Source: Planococcus kocurii (lineage in GTDB: Bacteria > Bacillota > Bacilli > Bacillales_A > Planococcaceae). From it: a stretch of 64,000 nt of DNA. This document shows positions 21,323-23,710 of the stretch, piece after piece. The DNA is taken from positions 3,278,501-3,342,500 of the forward strand of contig NZ_CP013661.2 of NCBI RefSeq assembly GCF_001465835.2. Direction: 5' to 3'. A program made the translations under genes and the position numbers. Every line of letters starts with the position of its first letter. Position 1 is the first letter of the stretch. Below the pieces are notes generated by a model. The model had not been told where the DNA came from. It saw nothing but the letters and a program-made list of their open reading frames with translations, and searched no databases.

Positions 21323-21398
21323 TAGAAACCTCCTCATTCATAGTGACCTTGGATATGGTGAAGGGACATCCATTTATTTAAGGAATTATGAAAAACCA

Positions 21399-21430
21399 GC
21401 ACAGGCAATAGCTTAATATTGCCTGTGCTA
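21399..21430 (-). terminator. terminator of the cupredoxin lipoprotein gene
   Basis: Perfect 12-bp arms GCACAGGCAATA/TATTGCCTGTGC with a T-run on the minus-strand side (GGTTTTTC). Confidence 0.8.
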
Positions 21431-21464
21431 GTGTATTGAAATTCATTTGCTAAAAGATATTGTC

Positions 21465-21971
21465 TTATTTAAATGCAACATTGTGCTGAACTTGATCTTG
21501 GTTGGTCCATTCAATCGTTGTTCCAGGAGCAACAGTAATCGTTTCTTCGCCAAATGCATAATCTGCAATATCGACTTCTACTTTATCCATAGCTTCAGCA
21601 CCTTCTTCAACAATCACGGTCATTTGCATAACAGGGTGCGGTTCACAGAATATCGAAAATTCACCTGCTTCGTTAAACACAAAGCTCGTCTTGTCTCCAT
21701 TTGATAATAAATCAGAAGCGGTACCACTTTTCGCTTCAGGTGAGCTTTCTTCCACGGGTTCAGCCTCTGTTGTTTCTTCAGCTGGTTCTTCTTCCACAAC
21801 TTCTTCCGCAGGCTCTTCTTCTACTTCTTCAGTAGTAGTTTCTTCTGCGGTACTTCCTTGTTCCTCAACTGCCGGTTCAGCCTTTTCGTTACCCGACGTT
21901 TGTTCTTCCCCACAAGCTGCTAATGACAAGATTGATGCAGCGAGAATAAACCCGATTTTTTTGTTAATCAT
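21465..21971 (-). CDS. lipoprotein with apparently circularly permuted cupredoxin domain
   Basis: Lipobox LSLAAC (Cys20), then an acidic Glu/Pro/Thr linker to about residue 82. The remaining 86 residues contain both halves of a type-1 copper domain in reversed order. First comes the half normally C-terminal, with FNEAGEFSIFCEPHPVMQM (Cys109, His112, Met115; the amicyanin-like C-x2-H-P-x-M spacing). Then comes the half normally N-terminal, with DYAFGEETITVAPGTTIEW and TNQDQVQHNVAFK (His163), where the protein ends. All four copper ligands are therefore present. The likely role is surface copper binding or electron transfer. It diverges from the two-repeat wall protein. Confidence 0.82.
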   Translation of the reverse strand: MINKKIGFILAASILSLAACGEEQTSGNEKAEPAVEEQGSTAEETTTEEVEEEPAEEVVEEEPAEETTEAEPVEESSPEAKSGTASDLLSNGDKTSFVFNEAGEFSIFCEPHPVMQMTVIVEEGAEAMDKVEVDIADYAFGEETITVAPGTTIEWTNQDQVQHNVAFK

Positions 21972-22351
21972 TTTAGTTCCTCCTCGTTTTTTGTTCTTGC
22001 CTATAAAACGCAGTAAGGGGAGAATTAGATTACTTTTTTTGAAAAAAGATTTTTCCTTCTATATAAATGTGCAGAAAAGTCAATTGCTCATTTTGGGCGT
22101 AGAGCTAGTGCTTGATTCAACCACTATCACACACCAAAGTAGTTGCAATAGCTTAATGAAAAGAAAACAGATTGAGATCATCAATAATTATATGTAAATA
22201 AGCAAAAATCTTTTCTTGTATGTAGGTTGATTAAGCCTGTCTCTAATAAATGTTAATTCAATCTTTTTAAAAATAAAGTGATCTAAACAAATCCCCTTTG
22301 CGTTATGTCTGTATAACGAAAAAAAAACAAGAAAAAGGGAGCGATTTTAGT
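21972..22351. other. divergent control region
   Basis: About 380 bp between the cupredoxin lipoprotein and the two-repeat protein genes. No gene with a ribosome site; it must hold both promoters, but no convincing boxes or operator were picked out. Confidence 0.4.
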
Positions 22352-23710
22352 ATGAAATTAAACAAATTACTGTTGGCCCTACCACTTAGCCTAGCGTTGC
22401 TTGTACCAACGGCAGCACTTGCCGATAGCCACGGCGGTCATTCAACAAGCGAAACTGCAACAGAAGTAAGCACGACAACACCTGCGGCGGAACTGCGCAT
22501 TGCACTGGATACGACCTTAACAGAGCACGCATTTCTAGCAGTTGAAGCGATGCGGAAAGGCGTCGACGGGGCAGAAGATTTTGATCAAGCAGCAGGAGCG
22601 TTACTGGCAAACGCTGACGACTTGTCTGCAGCCGTTGGTTCAGTTTACGGGGAAGAAGGCGCCGCACAGTTTGACGAAGTATGGAAGTCGCACATCGGCT
22701 ATTTCGTCGATTACGTGACAGCAACCGCTGAAGACAACCAAGAAGGCAAAGACCAAGCGTTAGCGGAACTGGAAAAATACAAAGTGGAACAATCGAAATT
22801 CTTTGATACCGCCACAGGCGGACTCTTGCCAGCAGCGGCGGTTCAAGAAGGATTGGACGTGCACGTCGATCAGTTGATCATGGCGTTTGACGCGTATGTG
22901 GCGGGCGATTTTGAAAAAGCTTACTCACTTGAGCGTGAATCGATTCAACACATGAGCATGTTCGCCGAAAGCTTGTCAGTAGCAATCACGACGCAATTTC
23001 CGGATAAATTTGACAACACCAGTGCCGATACACCGGCCATTGATTTGCGTGCAACATTGAACCAAACGTTCACTGAACACGCAGGACTTGCGGTCATGGC
23101 GATGCAAGACGGCGCGGACGGCGCTGAAAGTTTTGACCAAGCAGCAGGGGCACTTCTTGCGAACGCCGATGACTTGTCAGCAGCCGTAGGATCGGTTTAC
23201 GGCGACGAAGCCGGTGCACAGTTTGAAGAAACATGGAAGTCGCACATTGGTTACTTTGTGGATTACGTAACGGCAACGGGTGAAGGCAACAAAGAAGGGC
23301 AAGAACAAGCACGTGCCGAGCTTGATCAGTACATCGTAGACCAAGCAGCCTTCTTAGATGCAGCAACAGAGGGACGTGTTCCTGCAGCAGCACTGGAAGA
23401 AGGTTTAACTGCTCACGTTGGGCAACTACTGGCGGCATTTGATTCGTATGTAGCGGGCGATTATGACGCAGCGTACAGCTCGATTCGCGAGGCGTATGCA
23501 CACATGCAAATGCCAGCAGCGGGCTTGTCAGCAGCGATTGTCGATCAATTCCCAGACCAATTCGGCGCGACTGAAATGCCAGCCGAAATGCCAAAAACAG
23601 GCATGGGTGGTATGTCTGATACCGGATCATTCCCATTCATGTGGGTACTGGCCGGCTTAATGTTAGCGGCATTGACGACCGTAGTCGCGGTTCGTACACG
23701 CAAACAGTAA
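22352..23710 (+). CDS. secreted two-repeat protein with sortase-like C-terminus
   Basis: 452 aa. Signal peptide ending ALA-DS near 24/25, then HGGHS, then two copies of a helical module (about 45-219 and 229-403) with a period of exactly 184 residues. Each copy keeps four histidines at matching places: H59/H243 (TEHA), H114/H298 (KSHIGYF), H171/H355 and H200/H384. The C-terminus has MPKTG (413-417), a hydrophobic helix and a basic tail, as in sortase substrates. No family was recognised; a metal-binding helical bundle on the surface is a guess. Base composition is visibly more G+C-rich than its neighbours. ATG at 22352 follows AAGGGAGCG; the in-frame upstream start at 22298 would spoil the signal peptide. 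Confidence 0.75.
   Translation: MKLNKLLLALPLSLALLVPTAALADSHGGHSTSETATEVSTTTPAAELRIALDTTLTEHAFLAVEAMRKGVDGAEDFDQAAGALLANADDLSAAVGSVYGEEGAAQFDEVWKSHIGYFVDYVTATAEDNQEGKDQALAELEKYKVEQSKFFDTATGGLLPAAAVQEGLDVHVDQLIMAFDAYVAGDFEKAYSLERESIQHMSMFAESLSVAITTQFPDKFDNTSADTPAIDLRATLNQTFTEHAGLAVMAMQDGADGAESFDQAAGALLANADDLSAAVGSVYGDEAGAQFEETWKSHIGYFVDYVTATGEGNKEGQEQARAELDQYIVDQAAFLDAATEGRVPAAALEEGLTAHVGQLLAAFDSYVAGDYDAAYSSIREAYAHMQMPAAGLSAAIVDQFPDQFGATEMPAEMPKTGMGGMSDTGSFPFMWVLAGLMLAALTTVVAVRTRKQ

Follow-up and report, generated by a model that had tools for sequence, protein, structure and literature searches.

Does a blue copper domain whose two halves stand in reversed order in the chain still form one complete cupredoxin, and if so, how may it have arisen and what may it do? 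This question is raised by a gene for a 168-residue protein of Planococcus kocurii, located in the stretch of DNA that was analyzed as a whole (64,000 nucleotides, hereafter the window). The original prediction had described the product as a natural circular permutation with a complete copper site, hung on an acidic linker from a lipid anchor. Our analysis makes it likely that the protein is lipid-anchored and probably sigma-controlled, that its domain arose from an amicyanin/plastocyanin-like one by natural circular permutation, and that it would serve as an electron carrier or as a copper/redox buffer. The parts of the gene and its surroundings are as follows.

21395..21432, minus strand: stem-loop resembling an intrinsic terminator, directly downstream of the gene (16 pairs; 0.9 expected in shuffles)
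21465..21971, minus strand: permuted cupredoxin lipoprotein gene, 168 aa (ORF list, Pfam PF00127)
21468..21581, minus strand: canonical cupredoxin N-terminal half, placed last, residues 131-168 (amicyanin alignment, rotation test)
21483-21485, minus strand: ligand His163, in the last-placed half
21582..21605, minus strand: joining peptide (residues 123-130) that connects the former C-terminus to the former N-terminus (the best rotation cuts here)
21606..21725, minus strand: canonical cupredoxin C-terminal half, placed first, residues 83-122 (amicyanin alignment, rotation test)
21645-21647, 21636-21638 and 21627-21629, minus strand: ligands Cys109, His112 and Met115, in the first-placed half
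21726..21911, minus strand: acidic linker, residues 21-82, variable in sequence among relatives (sequence, relatives)
21912..21971, minus strand: signal peptide with lipobox LAAC and putatively lipidated Cys20 (sequence)
21979..21985, minus strand: ribosome-binding site GAGGAGG (read from sequence)
22007..22032, minus strand: TAATCTA-N15-CGTT, a promoter motif of ECF type 35 nt upstream of the start codon of the cupredoxin gene
22279..22304, plus strand: second copy of the motif, TGATCTA-N15-CGTT, 47 nt upstream of the ATG of the divergent gene
22352..23710, plus strand: divergent gene; its product is a secreted protein of helical appearance that has two repeats and an LPXTG-like end (ORF list, homologue annotation)

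Order of the halves in the sequence

The cupredoxin domain comprises 86 residues, with the Cys109-x2-His112-x2-Met115 loop first and the half running from PGTTIEWTNQD to His163 last. The predicted placement of the Cys-His-Met loop ahead of VAPGTTIEW and His163 is read directly in the open reading frame, and the stop codon agrees with an end five residues after His163; the gene lies on the minus strand, which the prediction had not named. The view that no frameshift had occurred and no half had been lost was borne out by the GAGGAGG site of its own, the terminator-like stem-loop after the stop and the match to the full profile once the domain was rotated. Neither a frameshift, nor a second copy, nor a continuation beyond the stop was seen in the gene flanks and the genome search; the domain is the only copy in the genome, three other matches covering only the N-terminal part of the protein. 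The lipid anchor and the acidic linker were also recovered, the former from the motif LAAC, which we take to be a lipobox directing lipidation of Cys20, and the latter from its composition, 25 of its 62 residues being Glu. This Glu-rich linker would keep the domain away from the membrane.

The Pfam model PF00127 matched the protein with 51.3 bits (gathering cut-off 21.2), the match being split into two stretches that stand in the genome with profile positions 26-98 first and 4-50 second, so that the canonical order of the halves is swapped. In the alignment with amicyanin 1id2, query residues 87-122 correspond to chain residues 71-106 and query residues 128-168 to chain residues 19-59, and both halves were matched by amicyanin and plastocyanin chains. 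A canonical-cupredoxin profile was built from 57 canonical domains of related loci, which had been fetched for their likeness to the permuted family, and the window domain was scored against it in each of its 86 rotations. The natural order reached 44.8 bits over half of the profile, and the best rotation, whose cut falls in the joining peptide, 88.8 bits over positions 3-86 of 88. Since rotation gives a full-length alignment, no strand is missing and the order alone differs. Doubling of the sequence raised the score in all 24 permuted loci (L043-L066), from 32-48 bits in natural order to 66-86 bits, and the best of 200 shuffled doubled cores (152 of which scored at all) gave 6.5 bits versus 85.8 for the real one. 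A profile-profile comparison of A2 with A3, the latter holding 22 of the 57 canonical domains, aligned only one half. A misreading of a tandem array was considered and rejected: the Chloroflexota loci L067, L068, L073 and L074 are true tandems, and the permuted genes are not.

Predicted fold of the permuted domain

AlphaFold2 was run on a 29-sequence alignment (A1 holds 29 of the 32 reference sequences; L035 was missed, the pattern having asked for W-x-N where it has W-x-D). The permuted domain was folded with a mean pLDDT of 95.1 and a pTM of 0.85; the five models averaged 95.1, 93.7, 92.6, 91.9 and 78.1, the last being low. A canonical homologue folded as control from 22 sequences gave a pLDDT of 96.2 and a pTM of 0.86. 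Comparison of the strand strings of the permuted domain and this homologue scored 97 when rotated and 60.5 in natural order, with a self-score of 105.5. The structure prediction that had been proposed as a check thus returned a confident fold whose rotated strands match those of a canonical relative, and, judged by pLDDT, pTM and strand order, the two halves appear to close into one barrel. A Foldseek search with the canonical control retrieved 306 PDB chains at E<=0.001, and the 50 matches listed were all cupredoxins or contained a cupredoxin domain. The permuted model retrieved no PDB chain at this threshold; its weak matches (best E 1.3, top rows mostly cupins) were taken as meaningless. 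By this sequential search, no solved protein appears to have the same connectivity. The standard annotation 'plastocyanin/azurin family' hides the rearrangement, and a sequential structure search misses it too.

The confidence of the monomer prediction speaks against a reading that we regard as improbable, in which the halves pair between chains, as a domain-swapped dimer or a partner-dependent pair, with a copper site shared by two molecules. Each half is also present in multi-domain tandem cupredoxins, and the distant homologue L192 has about 33 residues between its halves instead of 8, which would suit such pairing. The joining peptide is, on the other side, short and nearly constant, and the Cys-to-His spacing is 53-54 residues in 42 of the 43 distinct cores collected with a pattern that demanded the ligands and at most 12 residues after the His. 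In the favored reading, that of a permutant folding within one chain, about 8 residues would link the old N- and C-termini, and the new ones would open the loop after the His-ligand strand; the chain, beginning with the Cys-His-Met loop and ending with the His strand, would still form the usual sandwich and bring the four ligands together, probably around copper.

Distribution, conservation and origin

A profile search of 261 genomes of the family found the permuted domain in 35, namely 28 of the 46 genomes of the genus and seven genomes of two other genera, in two of which the frame spans only 87 aa. The gene is absent from 18 of the 46 genus genomes and is therefore dispensable. In Paenisporosarcina (L151 / L060) the permuted domain was seen cut to an 87-aa frame that has no signal peptide and is possibly decaying. 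Class-wide, 23 of 398 genomes matched, nine of them in full length (six from the genus, two others from the family, and the Ammoniphilus-like G388); the remaining matches were partial, and those whose frames were read were canonical. No other permuted member was found among 15 genomes of the order of G388. Phylum-wide, five of 398 genomes matched, the permuted ones being G000 and G638, a distant, 78%-complete Bacillota draft from another class that carries two permuted genes (L188 and L192) and is the sole genome of its class in the sample.

Scanning genomes from 84,980 species yielded 107 confirmed loci, 80 of which are covered by the figures given here: 24 are permuted type 1, all in Bacillota, 54 are homologues in canonical order, and two are permuted-like Chloroflexota loci without ligands. 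The latter (L082 and L115) are envelope proteins whose cupredoxin-like domain lacks the Cys and His ligands. Hosts of type 1 are Planococcus, Planomicrobium, Paenisporosarcina, Jeotgalibacillus, Fictibacillus, Ammoniphilus, Peribacillus and one MAG. The search for homologues with the same order, suggested along with the prediction, thus found the permuted form across dozens of Bacillota genomes. One genome has two adjacent permuted cupredoxin genes (L013:34-1232), the second with a much shorter linker. The domain occurs in one of 72,556 plasmid records. A phage origin was rejected, no match being found among 50,697 phage records at E<=1e-4 and no relative in a scan of viral contigs.

The four-ligand set held to be complete proved invariant: Cys, His, Met and His are kept in all 42 distinct full-length permuted rows, which were collected through profile matches, irrespective of their ligands. 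These come from 45 distinct full-length rows, from which three were set aside as not being permuted type 1: the matches in L068 and L073 span tandem boundaries, and L115 has no ligands. L192, which matched only in pieces and stands outside the 42, retains the four ligands as well. Exactly five residues follow the His in 36 of the 43 ligand-selected cores and six to nine in the other seven. Comparison of the core with relatives gave dN/dS of 0.02-0.14 in six of nine pairs, values that are rough, dS being 1.2-2.9 in these usable pairs and saturated in the other three. Swapped halves, four ligands kept and conservation in many species together look like a working permutation and not like a broken gene.

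A tree of 37 distinct permuted domains, rotated for the purpose, and 57 canonical ones placed all permuted sequences on one side of a branch with support of 99/94, and a second tree with a reduced set of 12, to which L188 and L192 were added, gave the permuted branch 96/89, with an unsettled bootstrap and both added sequences long-branched; the trees rest on 80 columns. These topologies suggest that the permuted form probably arose once. In the Chloroflexota tandem proteins L068 and L073, a full-length match in permuted order is found where two neighboring canonical domains meet, an arrangement that may represent the expected intermediate of a duplication-and-trimming route. The permuted family would accordingly have originated by tandem duplication of a cupredoxin domain followed by loss of the outer halves.

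The same route would also fit the view that the gene is a non-functional, decayed remnant of a tandem two-domain cupredoxin that lost half of each domain: tandem cupredoxins exist, trimming would yield this order, and one lineage has the reduced 87-aa frame without signal peptide. We hold this to be very improbable, given that ends, ligands and length are alike across genera, dN/dS is low in the computable pairs, the gene has its own ribosome site, promoter motif and terminator, and a plasmid-borne copy exists. The claim of a natural circular permutation is instead supported by the rotation test, the predicted fold, the order conserved in dozens of genomes, and the existence of canonical homologues next to a single permuted clade.

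Promoter motif, neighboring genes and relation to known systems

Alignment of upstream regions revealed that T[AG]ATCT-N16-CGTT is conserved immediately upstream of the permuted cupredoxin gene, a spacing that we take to be the layout of ECF sigma promoters. The pattern TRATCTA-N15-CGTT has 13 sites in the genome versus five for the reversed pattern, and two in the window versus 0.06 expected, one before the cupredoxin gene and one before the divergent gene 22352-23710. One of the 13 sites lies inside a 951-residue open frame (L177); this site aside, five lie within 50 nt of a start codon, before the cupredoxin gene and all four helical-family genes of the genome, and eight of the 13 lie elsewhere than directly ahead of one of these genes. 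Among the 24 loci L043-L066, the motif stands 16-39 nt before the cupredoxin start in 15 and is absent from nine. The product of the divergent gene had no Pfam match at E<=0.001; a homologue of it is annotated 'copper amine oxidase'. According to the genome search, its helical family has four members (22352-23710, L179, L180 and L187), all with two repeats and LPXTG-like ends and three of them 99-100% identical. Ahead of one helical copy, L187:170-1448 encodes an ECF sigma factor together with an anti-sigma factor in which zf-HC2 and RskA_C domains were recognized. A shared promoter motif and sigma/anti-sigma genes beside a member, as in an ECF sigma/RskA regulon, are thus both present, and this sigma factor and its RskA-like anti-sigma partner are probable regulators of the module.

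In Fictibacillus the gene order is helical protein, sortase and permuted cupredoxin, the sortase scoring 139 bits with the class F model, below its cut-off of 166. Helical genes were found near the cupredoxin gene in four of 25 stretches, some of which are ended by contig ends. A CHRD-domain protein and two sortases were observed near a permuted cupredoxin and a helical gene at L053:5602-9761. The same divergent pair as in the window is carried by the Planococcus plasmid pPS15-1 (L174, NZ_CP016541.2), with the motif before the helical gene and none before the cupredoxin gene. This plasmid is a mobilizable Antarctic one, and the pair lies near EAL and diguanylate cyclase genes.

In Ammoniphilus and Peribacillus (L064:3792-5222, L065:3732-5255), YVTN propeller lipoproteins end in the permuted cupredoxin, and His residues stand at like places in several successive propeller blades. 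An ECF sigma/RskA pair directly precedes the Peribacillus gene. Nitrous-oxide reductase has the layout of a propeller with a C-terminal cupredoxin, which the fusions share; they differ from it in that L065 scores 126.6 with the L-NosZ model, below the cut-off of 700, and has a single Cys, which presumably leaves no CuA pair. L065 also has partial similarity to lactonase-type N2O reductase. In the accessible portion of PMC13122619, L-NosZ is merely named.

The cupredoxin gene would probably be switched on together with the helical surface proteins, which look sortase-anchored and may be attached to the wall, by a sigma factor of ECF type paired with an RskA-like anti-sigma factor. The most likely job of the cupredoxin would be that of a single-electron carrier or a copper/redox buffer in the Gram-positive envelope. 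We give some weight, as a rather doubtful possibility, to a permuted cupredoxin fold that carries no electrons and acts in copper sensing, storage or chaperoning, or binds a different metal. The motif linked to sigma and anti-sigma genes, the presumably co-regulated surface proteins of no assigned role and the lack of a redox partner gene beside the cupredoxin gene within the window would all suit it. Against it stands the ligand set itself, C-x2-H-x2-M plus His, which we take to be the electron-transfer set of amicyanin. Beyond the envelope carrier or buffer as such, we regard it as evenly balanced whether a once-evolved permuted blue copper family of Bacillota belongs to an undescribed sigma-controlled cell-surface copper/redox module with helical proteins and a class F-like sortase, some members being propeller-fused in the manner of nitrous-oxide reductase. 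In this reading, the moved termini would alter the orientation of the copper site toward the membrane.

The cupredoxin fold is a textbook example of a protein scaffold that tunes a metal site. Within the natural permuted clade, evolution has produced dozens of variants whose His strand emerges last from the ribosome and whose tether is newly placed; with them, no designed protein is needed to test what chain order does to copper loading, folding and electron transfer. Circular permutation as such is not new, and to our knowledge the permuted form of cupredoxins has so far been an engineered one. Circular permutants of azurin were reportedly engineered by Yu et al. in 2017, a work cited in PMC6288478; these are likewise blue copper domains with moved termini, made in the laboratory, whereas the window protein occurs in nature, is conserved and has its relatives among amicyanin-type domains. 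The surprise is thus real but bounded, a known event being met in a fold with no natural case in the literature searched. No natural permuted cupredoxin was found in the full-text literature covered, which mostly excludes subscription papers, including the accessible parts of PMC4532836, PMC3143127, PMC12051499, PMC6288478, PMC5734314, PMC13206965, PMC11323028, PMC6925524 and PMC4411048; in a search on RskA and copper, the accessible part of PMC10449499 was silent on this system. Circularly permuted imelysins of Bacteroidales are, in the part of PMC3143127 available, natural, confined to one lineage and accompanied by canonical homologues. They resemble the present case as a natural permutation of a bacterial protein in one lineage, and differ in their all-helical fold and in having no copper site. 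Closest are amicyanin and plastocyanin (PF00127), with the same four ligands and, as in amicyanin, a C-x2-H-x2-M loop; the permuted protein differs from them by its chain order, lipid anchor and the acidic linker in front. The amicyanin model TIGR02657 gave 39 bits versus an equivalog cut-off of 110.2, placing the protein near the amicyanin family and not within it, and the swapped order together with this missed cut-off led us to file it as a permuted variant of amicyanin/plastocyanin.
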